Position numbers and translations under genes: made by a program
Notes under the pieces: generated by a model
The model's database searches: none
Told to the model about the DNA's origin: nothing
Seen by the model: the letters and a program-made list of their open reading frames with translations, nothing else
Source: Tubulanus polymorphus
Lineage: Eukaryota > Nemertea > Palaeonemertea > Tubulaniformes > Tubulanidae
Reading direction: 5' to 3'
Length of the DNA stretch: 64,000 nt
Assembly: GCF_964204645.1 (NCBI RefSeq)
Contig: NC_134025.1
Coordinates: 4,407,001 to 4,471,000 of the forward strand
Shown: positions 1 to 10,307 of the stretch, piece by piece
How the letters are laid out: each line of letters starts with the position of its first letter
How positions within the stretch are numbered: the first letter of the stretch is position 1

Positions 1-740
1 GAACTTTCGTTTTGGCGCCCCCGCCAAAACAACGAAAAACGTCGAAATTTCTCTAAAAGTTCGTTTTGGCGCGCCAAAACGGAGAATATTCCGTTTTGGC
101 GCCCCCGCCAAAACGAACTTTCATTTTGGCGCCCCCGCCAAAACGAACTTTCGTTTTGGCGCCCCCGCCAAAACAACGAAAAACGTCGAAATTTCTCTAA
201 AAGTTCGTTTTGGCGCGCCAAAACGGAGAATATTCCGTTTTGGCGCCCCCGCCAAAACGAACTTTCATTTTGGCGCCCCCGCCAAAACGAACTTTCGTTT
301 TGGCGCCCCCGCCAAAACAACGAAAAACGTCGAAATTTCTCTAAAAGTTCGTTTTGGCGCGCCAAAACAAAGAAAATTCCGTTTTGGCGCCCCCGCCAAA
401 ACGAACTTTCATTTTGGCGCCCCCGCCAAAACGAACTTTCGTTTTGGCGCCCCCGCCAAAACAACGAAAAACGTCGAAATTTCTCTAAAAGTTCGTTTTG
501 GCGCGCCAAAACGGAGAATATTCCGTTTTGGCGCCCACGCCAAAACGAACTTTCATTTTGGCGCCCCCGCCAAAACGAACTTTCGTTTTGGCGCCCCCGC
601 CAAAACAACGAAAAACGTCGAAATTTCTCTAAAAGTTCGTTTTGGCGCGCCAAAACAAAGAAAATTCCGTTTTGGCGCCCCCGCCAAAACGAACTTTCAT
701 TTTGGCGCCCCCGCTAAAACGAACTTTCGTTTTGGCGCCC
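1..740 (+). repeat. Left terminal/subterminal tandem array, 144-bp unit, about 5 copies (cut by window edge)
   Basis: The unit repeats with a period of exactly 144 bp (for example the GAACTTTCG starts at 1, 145 and 289). Each unit holds three hairpins of the form GTTTTGGCG-CCCC-CGCCAAAAC (the third starts with A instead of G), one perfect 16-bp palindrome TTTTGGCGCGCCAAAA containing an AscI site, a 32-bp spacer beginning AACGAAAAACG, and a 12-bp spacer in two versions (GGAGAATATTCC or AAAGAAAATTCC). Copies are nearly identical. The array ends abruptly at about 740, some 80 bp before the proposed transposase start. Confidence 0.97.
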
Positions 741-820
741 CGGAAACGTGTCTACTCCAGATGCTGACATACAAATTATGTACATACGCATACGTACTCG
801 TGCACGACCGCTTAATTATA

Positions 821-3113
821 ATGGACACCGTTCGGACTTGTATCCTTTTACGTAATAAAGACCAAGTTGCTCAACGGTCGATTTTGCTGTTGATCTTGTT
901 GATGATCTTAACAGATTCCTCTAGTTGATGATACTGTTAGGAAGCTTTTTGCAGATGGGTACACAAATGCAGAAATGAGGATTGCCATGTTATCTAACTT
1001 CGGAATAACTATTAGGTACGTATATATAAATTCCATGGCCTACATCAAGATGGTCTAAGAATAGATTTTAATTGTCTGCAGCTACGTATGGGCACTGCCA
1101 TTTTTATTCAATATTACTCCTTATAATGATGTGATATAGTAGTTTAGTTCACAAACCGTCTTGTTTATTTTAAACTTTCAGTGAACGCCACCTCAAACGA
1201 CAATTGAATAGGTTAGGTTTGAAAAGAAACAACAATTACGTTCTCAATGACGTAACCGCTGCAGTCGAGGAAAGTAATCCGAATTTTTGAAGTGATGCTT
1301 ATATCTGATAGAAATTGAAAATGTCTTTTGGGTTTAAGATTATGTTCTCTGCATTATTACAGGTTGAGCTTGCTGGCAGCGGATGTTGCATGGGATATCG
1401 TGCTATGTCACAACGTCTCCGTCAACGCTACGGAATAAGAGCCCCTAGGTAAGATGTATGATCGGGTGGCTACCTACACGGTTAATTCCTGACATGATAA
1501 ATGAGGGCGCTAAAGTACCAAAACGCCATAACTAAAAAAACTTAATTTCTCGAAAAATATTTTTTGGCCAAATTGAAGAATTGTCAGTTTTGTTACTCCT
1601 GACAAAAAGAACTTTCGAATCGGCCAGCATATGTATAAATGTGTATTTGATTGATGTAAGACCTTTAAGATGAGATCTGGATCACTTCACTCATGTGTTA
1701 TATGATTGTTTACTTCTAGGTCTCTAGTTTCCAATATCCTTCAGAATTTAGACTTCGAAGGAGTACAGAATAGGACCCATGGAGTTTTAAGACGACGACG
1801 TTACTTTAACAAGGGTCCCAATTATCTTGTCCATCTCGATGGTTATGACAAGCTCAAGCCTTTTGGTTTCCCGATTCATGGGTGTATAGATGGGTAAACA
1901 TAATATATAATTGATATATCCTAAAAGATATTATTTCCACCTATCAACAGCAGTTGCTATAAGTTCAGAATTTGGTTTGTCGAACATGTTCATAAACACA
2001 GTCTATATTTAAAAGATTTTCCCGACGAATCCTTTGGTTAAGAGTTGGAAATACTAATAATGACCCAGAGGTGGTTGCGTGGTACTTTTTAGATTTCGTT
2101 CAGGACATTGAAGGTAGATAGAATTGTCATATATAAATACACAATGTGCCGAAATTATGCCTGGGAAAATTTATCTGTTATCAATCGTCGATTAAGATAA
2201 TACTCTGACCGTCATCTTTATATCATCATTCAGCAGTTCCTCGCTGCATCCGTATGGACGCTGGAACCGAAAATGGCAGAATTGCAGCGATTCAGAAGGC
2301 CTTTAGAGCAGAATATGACGACGAAACGTGCGTTCTTGTGGGTAGATCTACGAGTAATCAGGTTCGTGGTGTCATTAATATGGGTAGATTTGGACAATCC
2401 CCATTTCTGCGCTAGAACCAACTTAAGATACTTCAAAACTCACCAATTATTTTATTTTTCTTTGTTTTAAGCGCATTGAACGATGGTGGCGAAGTCTTCG
2501 AAACGAAGTTGTTCAGTTTTGGATGAACGTATTTAAAGATATGGAGGAAAATGGAAGTCTATCTACCGCGGACGTTGTGCACATGTAGGTTAAATACCCG
2601 CCTTTAAAGCGCGTTGCGATTTTTTGTGATCCACGTAGTAATTTCCCTTTCTCCAATATTTTTCAGTCAAACCTTAAGATACTGTTTTTTTGATTTGATA
2701 AATGCCGATCTTCAGGATTTCGTGCAGGAGTGGAATACACATGCCATCAGGCCTCAACGAAATGTGGATGTTCCACCCGGAAAACCTGATCTATTATACT
2801 TCTCGCCGGAATATTACGGTACGAAATACGCTGTATAAAAATGAGCATAGGTTTCTAAGTTTACGATGTTTTTATCACTTCTTGATAATACGAAATAATA
2901 TTTTCAGGCACGATAGACTACAAATTTCCAGTGGACGCTGGACTACTTCCGCAAATTCGAGAGGAATTTTGTAGTAAGCCGAATGAATCGAGAGGCTGTG
3001 ATCCGGACTTTTCAGCGATGTGTGATCTTATAACGAGGCAGGGACAACAATCAAGACCGACATCAACCCCAGAAGCCGCTGCTTTGTATGACTGGCTATT
3101 AACTCAATTCTGA
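821..3113 (+). CDS. Integrase-core (rve) DDE transposase, spliced
   Basis: Exons read by eye: 821-865 (tentative), 915-1015, 1182-1263, 1363-1448, 1720-1893, 2016-2113, 2234-2361, 2472-2584, 2667-2818 and 2908-3113. Together they give 1185 nt, 394 codons plus TGA. The N-terminus is a small helix-turn-helix-like region (ITISERHLKRQLNRLGLKR, about residues 45-65). The catalytic core follows: first Asp in HLDGYDKLKPFG (about D145), second Asp in RMDAGTENG (about D204), Glu in QRIERWW (about E241). The second Asp and the Glu are 36 residues apart. The C-terminal part has EWNTHAIRP and PGKPDLLYFSPEYYG, usual in this family. No stop or frameshift interrupts the joined frame. The first exon and the weak donor GCA|GTCGAG at 1263 are the least certain points. 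The protein would cut and join the ends of its own transposon. It converges with the HECT gene at 4718-7320. Confidence 0.85.
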
Positions 3114-3835
3114 GAGCATACATGTTAGAATCATTTTTATACGTATCTGTCCTGCACGGTTTATGTGTTGTCTGTTCATGATGTATTTCGAAGATTCAAA
3201 TATATCTATGATACACGTTACGCGTTGAAAAGAATATGATTGTAATTTTTCATGGATTCATGCGACTGTTTGGGCTTAGTAATACATCATACTAACACTA
3301 CCCATGTTTTAATTCGCTATCCAACCCCATCTTAAGTAGGTGTCTCAGAAATAGAATACGCGTGCCATCAATTTACATGGAGAATTATCTGCGAAAGCGT
3401 ACTCCAGTATCCGCTATTCTCAAAACGCTTCAGAATAAATTTGCGTATGGTTCAAAAAGATGTATTTTTGATTAAATTTATTTTGAGAAAGTTCTATGAA
3501 GCGGTTGTTTAAAAAGTGGTCTTATGGACAAGTCACATATCTTTCATCCTCGCATGCCAGGGGTCTGGTATCGCACCCCGAACTCGTTTCCACCACCCCC
3601 TGGCCTCACGACGCGTGATTTCATTACTGGTTGAAATACCTCCTTGTACGTTGATTGGTCCATTTAACGGGAAAATCAACAGAAGCCTATAATATCGTTT
3701 GCTTAAAGCGCTGTGATTGGTACGACCGGATTCTGGTCGGCTAGTAACGACTCCAACGACTCGCGAGGTCAAGGGGTTCGGGGAACACGGCTTTAGCTTA
3801 GTGAATTCGATTCCCACGACAGGTGAAGATGCATA

Positions 3836-4009
3836 CATTGGAACCTCGTTACAACGAACCTCTGGGGACCAGAAAATATTGTTCATTTTAACAGATATTT
3901 CGTCATATCCAGTGTGAAATTAATCAAATTGTCTAATGTGGGACACAATCTTGTATTTGTTATGTCCGATGAATCGTTGTATCCCAGTTAGTTATAACGA
4001 GTTCCACTG
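3836..4009. mobile_element. Short TA-flanked inverted-repeat element (MITE), copy 1
   Basis: Starts CATTGGAACCTCGTTACAACG and ends in its inverted form TATAACGAGTTCCACTG, flanked on both sides by TA (3834-3835, 4010-4011). The termini resemble those of Tc1/mariner-pogo type elements, which duplicate TA on insertion. The same family occurs, inverted, at 14719-14875, with similarity along the whole length. It has no coding capacity. It is nested inside the large transposon, so it inserted after that element. Confidence 0.8.
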
Positions 4010-4410
4010 TATCTCTATATGAATGTGCAATTTTGACAGTATATAATTTAATCGTGTTCGAATACGTGCCAATGACACTTTCGTACTACGATATCATTTG
4101 CAGCTCGAGTGAAAGTGAGACACCATGAAAGAACGAAAACGCAATGAAGTGAAGATATTTGAATATTTTAATCGAAGTATCAAAGTTTCTCTTAAAAGCC
4201 TTAAAACATTATCTACGTTTTAATACCGTGTTGATACAATATATCAATATGTACTTAAAGATGATTGTCTTACAATTTCGAGACAAAACATAACTTGACA
4301 GCAGAGAAGTGGCACCCCCAAATCGCCCTGTTTTCAATACAAACAAAAAACGTATTTGGTCATGATTGATTCCCTAATTTGAAACGACAAATATAAGGAG
4401 CAAGTTTAAC

Positions 4411-4501
4411 AGCTCTCGGTAAGGTTTGACTCGAGAGTCAAGTCGGTTTTTTTCAATATTTCCAATGCTTTAACTCTAGAGTCAAACTTAACCGAGAACT
4501 G
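4411..4501. repeat. Imperfect inverted repeat (stem about 29 bp)
   Basis: The left arm around 4411-4441 (CTCTCGGTAAGGTTTGACTC) pairs imperfectly with the right arm around 4472-4501 (GTCAAACTTAACCGAGAACT) across a loop of about 30 bp. It lies beyond the 3' end of the HECT gene, where it could form an RNA hairpin, or it may be the remains of a fold-back element. Confidence 0.6.
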
Positions 4502-4717
4502 TAGAACCTGGTCAAAATGCACTGCATGAATAATTACTTCTATCATCAAAAGATCGTCACTAAGTAATTCTATGATAAAAGAAACGACATCAGGGCTGGC
4601 AATATTAAAAATAAACACACCACTTTTGGCCTAAACAAAAGAACTTAAACACGTTTTGATCCAACTTTGAAAATATGAAACTTACGTGGATTACGTCATT
4701 TCGTTTCTAGAATAATT

Positions 4718-7320
4718 TTATACGACGTCCATAACCCAAACATTGCTCTGGAGAATATTATCGAATTCTTGTTTCAGTTCGACGTATTCGTCATATGTTT
4801 CTGGTAACTCCAATATCTGGGCACATGTTCGAGCAACTGGAGCTCGTTGGAGACCGTCTACCTTAGTAAAGGTCACGTCAATCTTTTGGCAGTTACAGAT
4901 GTCAGAACCAGTACAATAGCGGAGGAACTTAGACAACATGCTTTCATCCAATGATCTGACATATCTCTTCAGTAACGTAGCAACATTTGACTGAGGAGCT
5001 GACAAAACGTTTGGAAAAGAAAGTAATTCTACCACTTTGCGACAGGAGGGTTTAAGATCCGTACAAAGATCGAGGTACTGTTTATATGATATTGTTACAT
5101 ATTTCTGTATCATAGGTTTTATACAATCAACTATAAATCTCGGCTTTTGCACCAATTCCTGGTGACTAATTTCCCGAATCAACATGGAGAAGTTCTCCTT
5201 CGTAGGAAGTTTCCGACATTCATATCCCCCCAGTATGTCTATTATCTCTTCGACGTCATTTGCTTCATCATCGAAATTAGCCAATGCGCGTCGAAATACC
5301 AGCTCCTCAGACGGAGAAACATATTTCAGGAATGATTCGACCAAGTCTACGCTATCATCCTGCTGGAAGAACAATTCGGAAACAAATGGCTGCGCGAGGA
5401 ATATTGGGAAATATGATGTTTCCTGAAATCCTTTACTGATGATGCGTCCTACAGCCTCCCATTTCTCTGTGCCATAATCATGGCGTATGAGAGGGATCAT
5501 CTGACTACTACCCGTCATACATTGCTTTCTAAATTCTGACCAAAATTCAGTAAGACACTCTCGAAAGACACCGTGTCCTTCTCCGGCTTCAACATTTCCA
5601 TTAGGGAGTATCATTCGAGCATTTATTATTTTCCCCATCACCGATGCATCACAAAAAGCGTTTATCATATCTTCGACCATGGCTGTTCTGCGAACCAGAA
5701 GGTTGTATTCTTCCCGTTCAATGCGATTAATCTCTTCTTGTGATAACTCGCCACTAGTCTGTACTCTGAATTGAATTGTAGGCGTATCAGGCTGTATCAA
5801 TTCGAAATCATTAAAGTTGATATCTGCTATACCATCACGGGAATGTGTATCATTTGCACCCGTATGTATGCCAACAGCACCGGTAGGCACATAACCAGAC
5901 TGAATCCCGGCCGCAAATGGAGTTGAAAGTGTATGGGCAGATTGGGTATGCGTAGTTAAAACGATAGGTTGAATATCACTACTAGCCGAAATTGTAGATG
6001 AGGCTGCTGGCGTAAACGACAATGCCGGTTGCATCAACGAAAACATAGGTAAAGTTGACTCAGAAATCGGTGGCTGGTGGGTATTAGCAAGAAAGGATGA
6101 CATGGATGGCAAGGATGTTTCATCATCACTATCGTCAACTAAAACAGTTGTGTGAAGATAGAGCCTAATAGGGTTTGTTTTATGTGCTGCGATGTAGGCC
6201 TCTAGACCAAAAACATTACCACACTCAAGATAATCACATAACCGATTACCATTGAAATTTGCTAAGTAATAGCTCACATCATTGATTTTTAGGTTCATCG
6301 CATTCGATTTGCCGTCTGGAAAAAATAGGTTTAAGAACTCCATGGTTAAGGCCGACAAGTTCATTTCTTTTTTCAGGTCCAAAGTGTGTGTCCCCCCACC
6401 CTTGCTTGCAGTAACTAGTACAAAGGTCCCGCTTTTGATGGCGTGTTTCCAACCTAGTTTTATTCGTCGTGTATCTTTCTCTGCATTTTTTGTCGTCATT
6501 GATTTCTTGGTGCCGGCCTTCCGTTTTTGAAATTGCGTTCTCAACCTGCACAAAACACTAGATGATCCTGAAAATGAAATAATAAAGGAAAGTGTTATAT
6601 ATTTCAAGTAAACAATTTACAAATTTGTAAAAAGATCCATTGATCGCAGACCCGTCGTAAGTCGAATCGCAAGGATAGAACAAGTTCTATTTCAGCGATG
6701 AGTTATGCGTCAAATGACCTTTGGACTCGGCGATGATTGAATCGTTGTCGATCTGACTGTGACAAACGAATCGCCAATCGGCGGTCACGTGTTTACTACC
6801 GCTGTTTTTACGACGAGATGGTCGTCGTAAGTCGACCTCAGCTTAGCTTAATCACGAGAAATAGGCACAAGCCTTCATAACCTCTCTAAAAGTATAACCC
6901 TCTGATAGCACAATCTCATGGACAGAATTGAATTAGCGTAACGGTCAGTGACAACGGTCATGAAAGTTGGAATTAAGCACGTGATTTATCTTAAAACTCA
7001 AATTATTACCTGCACTAGACACATTTTCATCTTCTTTAGGCTGAGAATTTACTATCCTACACCTATTCCTTAGCCGGACTCTATCCCCGATAGCTGTAAC
7101 TCCTGCTGCTTCAAAATCATTATCTGTCATGGTCGTGACGTCACTAACACCTATCTGGATGAGAAATTAAAATATGATACATTTTCAGAAGTTATGGCCC
7201 TATAGCATTACCAATCGGGGCAAGTCTGTGTATACATAAAGTATTGAAACACGGTACCTTATTTTCGAGAAACTTTGCAATGTATTGGCCTAATCCCAAT
7301 TCTAGGAGTATGTTGTCCAT
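4718..7320 (-). CDS. SAM-HECT E3 ubiquitin ligase-like protein carried by the transposon
   Basis: Three coding exons on -: 7320-7258, 7154-7010 and 6567-4718. They join in frame to 685 residues. Residues about 1-55 form a SAM domain (LLELGLGQYIAKFLENK, then TDNDFEAAGVTAIGDRVRLRNR). A basic stretch and a segment with KGGGTHTLDLKKEMN follow, seen in transposon-associated relatives of G2/M-phase E3 ligases. A Ser/Thr-rich linker comes next. The last 330 or so residues are a HECT domain, with the catalytic Cys in PVARTCAQILELPETYDEY (about C651) and the usual 34-residue tail. The ATG follows directly on an acceptor-like TTCTTTACAG, so a 5' exon upstream is likely. HECT ligases pass ubiquitin through this Cys to a substrate. 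The substrate here is unknown and could be host factors or the transposase. The large exon has no internal stops. Confidence 0.85.
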
Positions 7321-8030
7321 CTGTAAAGAAGACATTTACGAATTAACGCCATTGAATGATTATAATTCATTAGTTTTCACTAATGCAGACCGAGCAAAAT
7401 AATCGTCGCTTACAATGATTAGGCAGTACGAGAGAAACGGCTCACGTCGAAAACTTAGAATACTACCAGTACGTGTTATATTGCCTGCGCATACCAGAGA
7501 ACGACATCGGTTTTTTTAATATGTTTTCAGCGGCCGAAAATCAATCGATTTTTAAAATATATTGGCATATTAAAGAACAAAGTTTATGAATAGGCCTATG
7601 TGAGCTAAGCAATGCGAGGCAATGTATAGGATTTAAATGATACCAGGGGCTGATCCAGCATTTTTTAAGGAGTGGGGGTCGAGGGGGTACGGTGGTGCTC
7701 TGCTGGTCATCCCGAGAAATCTTAAAAACTTAGTCCCATTTTCATGAATTGTAAGCGTTTTTAGGCGCTACTTGATCATCTCATACATTTAAGATGTAGG
7801 CCTAACATGTCTACTTTGAAAAGTAGTTTTCCAAGTGGGAGGGGTTCTCGAGGACCCAAAGAAAACCCCTGCATTTAACCCTGAATAGGCTACATACCTG
7901 TTCGTTAGTCCGTTAATGTATACACCACCACCATCGACAACGATATGTATTATCACGTATACCTAGATCCGACTCGTAACAACAAAATCGAAGGGAGACG
8001 AATCGGATTTTCAAAGAAAGTTCGACGTTT
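7321..8030. other. 5' flank of the SAM-HECT gene
   Basis: About 700 bp between the HECT start and the right array. It begins with a splice-acceptor-like tract (- strand TTCTTTACAG next to the ATG), so a non-coding first exon and the promoter should lie here or in the array. I see no coding exon in it. Confidence 0.45.
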
Positions 8031-9357
8031 TTCGCTGTTTGGCGGGGGGCGCCAAAACGAAAGTTCGTTTTGGCGGGGGCGCCAAAATGAAAGTTCGTTT
8101 TGGCGGGGGCGCCAAAACGGAATATTCTCCGTTTTGGCGCGCCAAAACGAACTTTTAGAGAAATTTCGACGTTTTTCGTTGTTTTGGCGGGGGCGCCAAA
8201 ACGAAAGTTCGTTTTGGCGGGGGCGCCAAAATGAAAGTTCGTTTTGGCGGGGGCGCCAAAACGGAATATTCTCCGTTTTGGCGCGCCAAAACGAACTTTT
8301 AGAGAAATTTCGACGTTTTTCGTTGTTTTGGCGGGGGCGCCAAAACGAAAGTTCGTTTTGGCGGGGGCGCCAAAATGAAAGTTCGTTTTGGCGGGGGCGC
8401 CAAAACGGAATATTCTCCGTTTTGGCGCGCCAAAACGAACTTTTAGAGAAATTTCGACGTTTTTCGTTGTTTTGGCGGGGGCGCCAAAACGAAAGTTCGT
8501 TTTGGCGGGGGCGCCAAAATGAAAGTTCGTTTTGGCGGGGGCGCCAAAACGGAATATTCTCCGTTTTGGCGCGCCAAAACGAACTTTTAGAGAAATTTCG
8601 ACGTTTTTCGTTGTTTTGGCGGGGGCGCCAAAACGAAAGTTCGTTTTGGCGGGGGCGCCAAAATGAAAGTTCGTTTTGGCGGGGGCGCCAAAACGGAATT
8701 TTCTTTGTTTTGGCGCGCCAAAACGAACTTTTAGAGAAATTTCGACGTTTTTCGTTGTTTTGGCGGGGGCGCCAAAACGAAAGTTCGTTTTGGCGGGGGC
8801 GCCAAAATGAAAGTTCGTTTTGGCGGGGGCGCCAAAACGGAATATTCTCCGTTTTGGCGCGCCAAAACGAACTTTTAGAGAAATTTCGACGTTTTTCGTT
8901 GTTTTGGCGGGGGCGCCAAAACGAAAGTTCGTTTTGGCGGGGGCGCCAAAATGAAAGTTCGTTTTGGCGGGGGCGCCAAAACGGAATTTTCTTCGTTTTG
9001 GCGCGCCAAAACGAACTTTTAGAGAAATTTCGACGTTTTTCGTTGTTTTGGCGGGGGCGCCAAAACGAAAGTTCGTTTTGGCGGGGGCGCCAAAATGAAA
9101 GTTCGTTTTGGCGGGGGCGCCAAAACGGAATATTCTCCGTTTTGGCGCGCCAAAACGAACTTTTAGAGAAATTTCGACGTTTTTCGTTGTTTTGGCGGGG
9201 GCGCCAAAACGAAAGTTCGTTTTGGCGGGGGCGCCAAAATGAAAGTTCGTTTTGGCGGGGGCGCCAAAACGGAATTTTCTTTGTTTTGGCGCGCCAAAAC
9301 GAACTTTCAGAGAAAATTGGACGTTTTTTTTCGTTTTGGCGTTCTGGCGTTCTGGCG
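8031..9357 (-). repeat. Right terminal/subterminal tandem array, 144-bp unit, about 9 copies, inverted relative to the left array
   Basis: Same unit as at 1-740, in reverse complement, with period 144 (the motif CTTTTAGAG ends at 8160, 8304 and 8448). The 12-bp spacer alternates between GGAATATTCTCC and GGAATTTTCTTTG-type versions. At the outer edge the unit decays (9310-9357: run of T, then GGCGTTCTGGCGTTCTGGCGCCC). Long open frames on both strands here (7913-9364 and 7945-9465) exist only because 144 is divisible by 3 and the unit lacks stops in those frames. They are not genes. Confidence 0.97.
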
Positions 9358-10307
9358 CCCTCATTTACATACCAGGAATTTTACGCTATGGCCCTTATCA
9401 GCCACCATAAATATGTCATATGTCATGTAGTTTCATGCAAACATAACAAACCTAAGCCTAATTAATAGGCCTAAGCGATGCCAGAACAGAATGGAGCAAC
9501 TTTGATCATTTTAGCGTGCCAGCGGATGGATGGAGTGATCTGAGAAAAAGCTTAGCGAGGATTTGTAGTGTTTGTGTCGATCAGCAGCAGATCAGGCGAG
9601 AAGACTTGTCATCAATGTCACATTCTTCTTGTTCTCCTTCTTTTAGTGGGTTGTGAAATAAAAATCATTCATACCTGCTTTGGAACTGATTTCAATCCTA
9701 TATGCCCTTCCTTCAAACTTTCACCTCCATAAACGGTTCGTATACCCTTTTGTTGAAGTGAAATGCACGTAAATCAAACACTGCACTAAAATATTCTTGA
9801 ACCAGGAAGTAAAATACTGGCTTTAGGTCATATAGACGTGTGAAACTATACGCGGTGGTCGCTAATATCCGGATTCGGCATCACACTGCATAAACACATA
9901 AATATGTAAACTGATGAAGTTCAAAAATGATTTCATACCATCGAAATTGATAAACATCACTGTTATTTTACACGCATCTGTACTTTAATTTTTGCGGGAT
10001 TAATGGTTTTAACTAACATTGATTTTCGTTTGTAATGTTCTCAACAATCGGCCCTCAGGTTTTACGAATGTAACAACAATTTTTCAATACACTTTTCCAA
10101 TAATCAACCATCATTTCACTTATGTTCCATATTTTTCATTTAGAAAATTAAAATTTCGTTTTCAAAATAATTCTGGAATTGTTTTTATTGGGAAAATGAT
10201 ATGTTTTACTAAGAATATTCATTTAGTTAACTTTTAAATCGACGCAACATTCTGAATCCAAGGCCCACGTGTTGTTTCCAAACTAGAGTTTATAAATCAG
10301 AATTGAA
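9358..10307. other. Intergenic region upstream of NOP58
   Basis: About 950 bp between the transposon's right edge and the NOP58 ATG. It should contain the NOP58 promoter and 5' UTR. The open frame at 10019-10237 is low-complexity, AT-rich sequence without recognisable homology. I see no clear TATA box. Confidence 0.5.

Follow-up and report, generated by a model that had tools for sequence, protein, structure and literature searches.

A transposon of the IS3EU type in the nemertean Tubulanus polymorphus that combines its transposase with a SAM-HECT gene, a probable long-term partner

DNA transposons are usually regarded as needing a transposase only. For the IS3EU superfamily, one source describes complete families with TA..TA ends and, usually, a 6-bp target-site duplication (TSD) (PMC10045372). 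A second gives TAYGG..CCRTA as the ends of fungal IS3EU and, for fungal elements with TET/JBP, a dioxygenase gene flanked by the transposase on one side and by an oppositely oriented alpha-kinase gene on the other (PMC12730594). Here we describe an element of this type in a 64,000-nucleotide stretch of the Tubulanus polymorphus genome (the window, C1:4407001-4471000 of G000; 267.8 Mb in 77 contigs were searched). A first-pass annotation of the window had proposed that an integrase-type transposase and a SAM-HECT ubiquitin ligase belong to one element. Because of its ends, its TSDs, its copies and the recurrence of the gene pair, the locus is supported as one transposon in which a DDE transposase of integrase type is accompanied by a SAM-HECT gene, and the single-element claim is borne out. 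We consider it probable that this is a recently mobile, probably autonomous transposon of the IS3EU/GingerRoot type with the SAM-HECT gene as a long-term partner that most likely raises net transposition.

Extension of the sequence to the left of base 1, where the first-pass annotation had expected a terminus, located both that terminus and the TSD AATATG. The whole element occupies C1:4406522-4416409 (window -478 to 9409; 9,888 bp). Its start precedes window base 1 by 479 bp, and the window therefore opens inside the transposon; on the right it runs to 9409 rather than ending at 9357, where its edge had been placed. The outer 20 bp of the two ends are inverted repeats that match at 20/20 positions and read TATGG..CCATA, and the 6-bp TSD AATATG flanks the copy on both sides. 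The features of the element are as follows.

Just outside the element start at G000:C1:4406522, no strand: 5′ TSD AATATG, from the left flank and the copies
1..741, no strand: left array of 144-bp units, inverted relative to the right array; the 479 bp preceding base 1 hold the outer part of this array and the left terminal repeat
912..3113, plus strand: IS3EU-like DDE transposase, from the exon model and a PF24764 match
4718..7335, minus strand: SAM-HECT gene, exons 7335-7258, 7154-7010 and 6567-4718, from the exon model and Pfam SAM_1 and HECT
8015..9341, no strand: right array of 144-bp units with short palindromes, from Tandem Repeats Finder
9342..9409, no strand: right terminal inverted repeat, ending ..CAGCCACCATA, from comparison of copies
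9410..9415, no strand: 3′ TSD AATATG, duplicate of the 5′ flank

Tandem Repeats Finder resolves the array at 1-741 into 5.1 copies of 144 bp (97% match) and that at 8015-9341 into 9.2 copies of 144 bp (98% match), the two being mutually inverted. Together with the gene models, this agrees with the earlier description of inverted 144-bp arrays around two convergent genes. Open frames of 217-506 residues span the arrays on both strands (window 1-928 and 7913-9465); because 144 is a multiple of 3, these most likely arise from the repeat itself rather than being genes.

The same structure recurs across the genome. The array probe found 425 matches, and 15 loci were taken from this list (the window and L006-L019). 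Six of the 15 hold the whole inner part (the window and L006-L010), and across these 7.27 kb the long copies show 99.66-99.87% identity to the window in aligned pieces, with 160 bp of one intron missing from L006. The remaining nine (L011-L019) are short, array-only copies of 1,362 to 3,576 bp, consisting of inverted arrays between identical ends. Both ends (TATGG..CCATA) and a perfect 6/6 TSD are present at 14/15 loci (the window, L006-L009 and L011-L019), and the 14 TSDs are 14 different sequences; the right end of L010 was not found within the extracted piece. By a fuzzy motif count, the six long copies carry 3 to 9 array units that read along the forward strand of their locus and 5 to 8 that read along the reverse strand. 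Since L011 carries two left ends, it is a nested or fused copy. In four of the six long copies both modelled frames are free of stops, which makes the idea of a partnership between the two genes testable. At C12:6502727-6553210 (L038, L063), search matches outline three decayed copies in one orientation at ~23 kb spacing, an arrangement as if one copy-bearing block had undergone tandem duplication.

The transposase model has nine exons (912-1015, 1182-1251, 1363-1448, 1720-1893, 2016-2113, 2234-2361, 2472-2584, 2667-2818 and 2908-3113) separated by eight GT..AG introns, and encodes 376 residues. The Pfam profile rva_4 (PF24764) matches it with E 1.1e-38 (133 bits, cut-off 26), and the catalytic triad, assigned by motif, falls at D127, D186 and E223 of the 376-residue model, giving DD36E; the D-D-E integrase core recognized in the first pass is thereby confirmed. 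The donor of the second exon at 1251 is uncertain, having been chosen for frame retention. The 5′ start is also uncertain, and further coding sequence upstream is possible. IS3EU/GingerRoot transposases are characterized by the lack of an N-terminal HHCC zinc domain; for this region of the model, whose first exon is uncertain, the Pfam matches listed are all to helix-turn-helix profiles and below cut-off. A phmmer search of the transposase against PDB returned chance-level matches only (E 1.5 and 1.6).

The SAM-HECT gene comprises three exons with a single stop at the end and a predicted product of 690 residues, its true 5′ start being uncertain. Pfam SAM_1 matches near the N end (E 4.6e-7, 30.5 bits, cut-off 23) and Pfam HECT at the C end (E 1.1e-8, 35.5 bits, cut-off 23.9), the latter over profile positions 211-293, which correspond to the C-lobe. 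The catalytic Cys is Cys656, within RTCAQILELP, and with both domains above cut-off the SAM-HECT assignment stands. In the PDB, UBE3C ranks first (E 0.005). It is also recovered by a profile built with relatives (E 0.0088), in an alignment that includes a weak, correctly ordered N-lobe stretch. By these profile matches the predicted HECT C-lobe is solid, and an N-lobe is likely present, if not proven. An AlphaFold2 model of the single HECT exon was too poor (predicted local distance difference test score 35.7) and was discarded. The two genes had also been called uninterrupted, which holds for the spliced frames of the window copy only: eight introns divide the transposase and two the HECT gene.

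We then counted how often the two genes occur together. Loci were defined as clusters of matches from the transposase, rva_4, HECT-exon and Pfam HECT genome searches. All counts that follow are among the matches listed, which comprise 56 transposase and 64 HECT loci and include part of the 167 matches of the transposase search; upstream exons at C8:2448924 were counted as a separate locus and are probably part of the C8:2440060 gene. A HECT locus lies within 10 kb of 27/56 transposase loci, where random placement expects 0.27, and 27/64 HECT loci adjoin such a transposase. All but one of these pairs (26/27) are tail-to-tail and 0.9-5.1 kb apart, the remaining pair, at C5:13570527, being 8.2 kb apart and not convergent. 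Near copies of the window family account for 14 of the 27 pairs, and the non-window pairs fall, by identity and tree, into about eight further families. A convergent HECT C-lobe below the search threshold at L026, spotted in a reading of the extracted loci that covered these loci only, raises the paired loci to 28/56 and the further families to nine, making about ten overall. Paired families reach down to ~32% transposase identity. The first-pass annotation had proposed the frequency of the pair in one neighbourhood as a test, and had named unrelated arrays and genes that never occur together as the outcome speaking against one element; shared ends, TSDs and recurrent pairing were found instead. 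Its description of the pair as lying inside inverted 144-bp arrays is shown for the window family only; the ends of the other paired families were not located.

Control transposases rarely showed such an arrangement. For DDE_Tnp_4, a HECT was nearby in 2/150 scored matches (of 371 candidates), one of them convergent and sitting between both genes of a pair on C5; for hAT, a HECT was nearby in 4 of 79 matches, with 0 convergent. A PF04236 profile search gave zero matches in G000 and in the control genomes. The DDE_Tnp_4 transposase at G000:C5:10763367, which lies between the HECT and transposase of one pair, is likely a later insertion. Separately, L050-L054, L056 and L057 carry element-type HECT C-lobes, with a convergent transposase not detected nearby, and near C1:14533967 (L059) a short frame on the minus strand (6986-6726), in convergent position, resembles, by eye, a transposase C-terminus.

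The pairing extends across deep divergence. The transposase tree, from which L021 and L022 were dropped and in which a stretch of L038 was blanked, contains two deep groups with paired families in both; three HECT-less families (L027-L029) fall in one of these groups and L020 in the other. Transposase and HECT identities covary (Spearman 0.71; 28 non-independent pairs drawn from nine loci). L038 was unblanked in this comparison, which makes its transposase identities too low. The window shares 61% transposase and 50% HECT identity with L023, and 40% and 35%, respectively, with L030. Across the six young copies, the HECT gene shows 6 synonymous and 3 nonsynonymous changes (p 0.01 vs neutral 75%), and its main exon is stop-free in 6/6; the transposase has 3 synonymous and 4 nonsynonymous changes, including two nonsense (L006, L009). 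These selection counts are small, and the HECT exon borders used for them are a few bases off the final gene model. Together, the data suggest a ligase gene that recurs as a conserved partner rather than being carried along at random, ubiquitination itself being only predicted.

Several observations weigh against such a partnership. The Pfam HECT match covers the C-lobe only, and the N-lobe alignment to UBE3C is weak (3.9 bits). No HECT lies within 10 kb of 29/56 transposase loci (28/56 after L026), and IS3EU-type ends (TAYGG..CCRTA, 6-bp TSD) were not found at 15/16 other loci, several of the pieces being short and ending near the genes. The C-lobe tree places the window-type clade (100/100) on a very long branch among host HECTs, 'host' being our label for a HECT without a nearby transposase locus, and the two other element types group apart from the window type (94/90). 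Separate captures of the element HECTs are thus possible by this tree, for which 19 HECT pieces were collected and which was built without L047 and L055 (no pattern match), L057 (near copy), L024, L033 and L038. A constraint placing host HECTs together was not rejected (approximately unbiased test, p-AU 0.077, 87 columns); on the same figures a single origin of all element HECTs is neither shown nor rejected. At L031 and L034, a window-like N-terminal stretch lies 3-5 kb upstream of an other-type C-lobe; provided that both parts are one gene, this hints that the catalytic end was exchanged. Finally, among old copies, 86/137 HECT changes (p 0.0009 vs 75%) and 50/77 transposase changes (p 0.026 vs 75%) are nonsynonymous or nonsense, in copies that partly share changes. 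Both proportions are somewhat under 75%, so that HECT is not clearly better kept than the transposase; the two genes drift alike in these copies.

The family of L020-L022 also speaks against a strict need for the ligase. Its members are intronless, with open frames of 400-401 residues and copies 98.8% and 96.6% like L021, and L021 has TACGG..CCATA ends ~8 kb apart with a 5/6 TSD. HECT was not found in this family by tblastn or genome searches. Because it combines close copies and IS3EU-like ends with no HECT seen, the ligase would not be strictly required; it may be optional in the wider group, or act in trans. A second candidate end at L020 (772-7268, 16/20, TSD 5/6) was taken as internal, with L021 homology continuing past it. 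This intronless family and the nine-exon window family belong to one transposase group, and introns were therefore gained or lost there. Long, related open frames on the minus strand beside transposase loci (L022:530-3427 and L028:1105-4338) are perhaps another large mobile element. Viral contigs scanned with the intronless relative yielded zero confirmed relatives.

How, then, should the SAM-HECT gene be understood? Captured host SAM-HECT genes could ride along as passive cargo with no role in transposition, a reading that fits the existence of a HECT-less family with close copies (L020-L022), the decay of old window-family copies in both genes and a C-lobe tree that does not establish one origin for the element HECTs. 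We judge it improbable, however, in view of about ten paired families that share a uniform tail-to-tail layout (26/27), the preserved HECT identity of 23-50% between the window and other families, and the catalytic Cys, which is retained in the window, L023, L030, L037 and L038, with Tyr in L032; the motif pattern used for C-lobes demands T followed by C, Y or S, and cannot gauge loss of the Cys. The earlier term cargo likewise understates an old, recurrent pair, and is apt insofar as no ligase is seen in one related family.

An active role could also run in the opposite direction, with the HECT protein degrading the transposase and dampening spread as a self-limiting or host-serving repressor. 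Stop-free HECT main exons in all six young copies, alongside transposase nonsense in 2/6 (L006, L009), would accord with this, but the numbers are tiny and old copies have broken HECT frames too; we regard a repressor as unlikely. That unrelated genes merely came to lie between satellite arrays by chance is hardly credible against the terminal repeats, the TSDs and six colinear copies; no observation in its favour was found. We thus favour a long-term partner that raises net transposition.

Movement by DDE transposases via inverted ends is established for the class, and we infer it for the window element. The transposase would bind the ends, and perhaps array units too, with the 144-bp arrays offering multiple binding sites; it would then excise the element and insert it into target DNA at cuts staggered by 6 bp, and array-only copies would be mobilised in trans. 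The first-pass annotation had proposed that the ligase may tune transposase stability, host repair or cell-cycle state. In our reading it may act by removing or modifying some host factor that holds the element in check, or may control how the transposase and the post-integration complex are turned over, two routes that we consider about equally likely. More tentatively, with close to an even chance of being right, we propose that an IS3EU-type lineage has kept a dedicated SAM-HECT gene, tail-to-tail, through deep divergence, as a means of manipulating either host proteins or the transposition complex. Such a transposon-encoded ubiquitination system would parallel fungal IS3EU with their kinase and dioxygenase partners. 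If a recurrent E3-ligase partner is real, some transposons would be equipped to alter host protein stability themselves, as viruses do, and part of the HECT genes in such genomes would be transposon genes.

In the literature, the terms 'HECT' and 'ubiquitin' are absent from the main text of PMC10045372 and PMC12730594, and a term search found 'HECT' absent from the main text of PMC4255032. A link between IS3EU and HECT was not found in passages of PMC11645255 and PMC12763893, and none of the titles and abstracts listed, which for IS3EU cover 30 of 35 papers, reports a HECT gene in IS3EU; Repbase and subscription journals, which may note it, lay outside this scope.

Among known systems, IS3EU/GingerRoot elements are the closest, sharing with the window family the TA..TA (TAYGG..CCRTA) termini, the usually 6-bp TSD and an integrase-type DDD/E core. 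The element fits the IS3EU superfamily by its ends, TSD and predicted core. Unlike those elements, it carries subterminal inverted arrays of 144-bp units as well as a SAM-HECT gene. Fungal IS3EU with alpha-kinase and TET/JBP genes belong to the same superfamily and likewise carry an extra enzyme gene opposite to the transposase; their partners are a kinase and a dioxygenase, whereas that of the window element is a predicted ubiquitin ligase. By sequence, this protein shares with the HECT ligases UBE3C and UBE3A a C-lobe with the TC..L.LP motif, but it matches them weakly and has a diverged N-lobe and an N-terminal SAM. The short window-family copies, lastly, invite comparison with foldback elements and miniature inverted-repeat transposable elements in being inverted tandem arrays, and differ from them in sharing exact ends with a transposase-bearing element.

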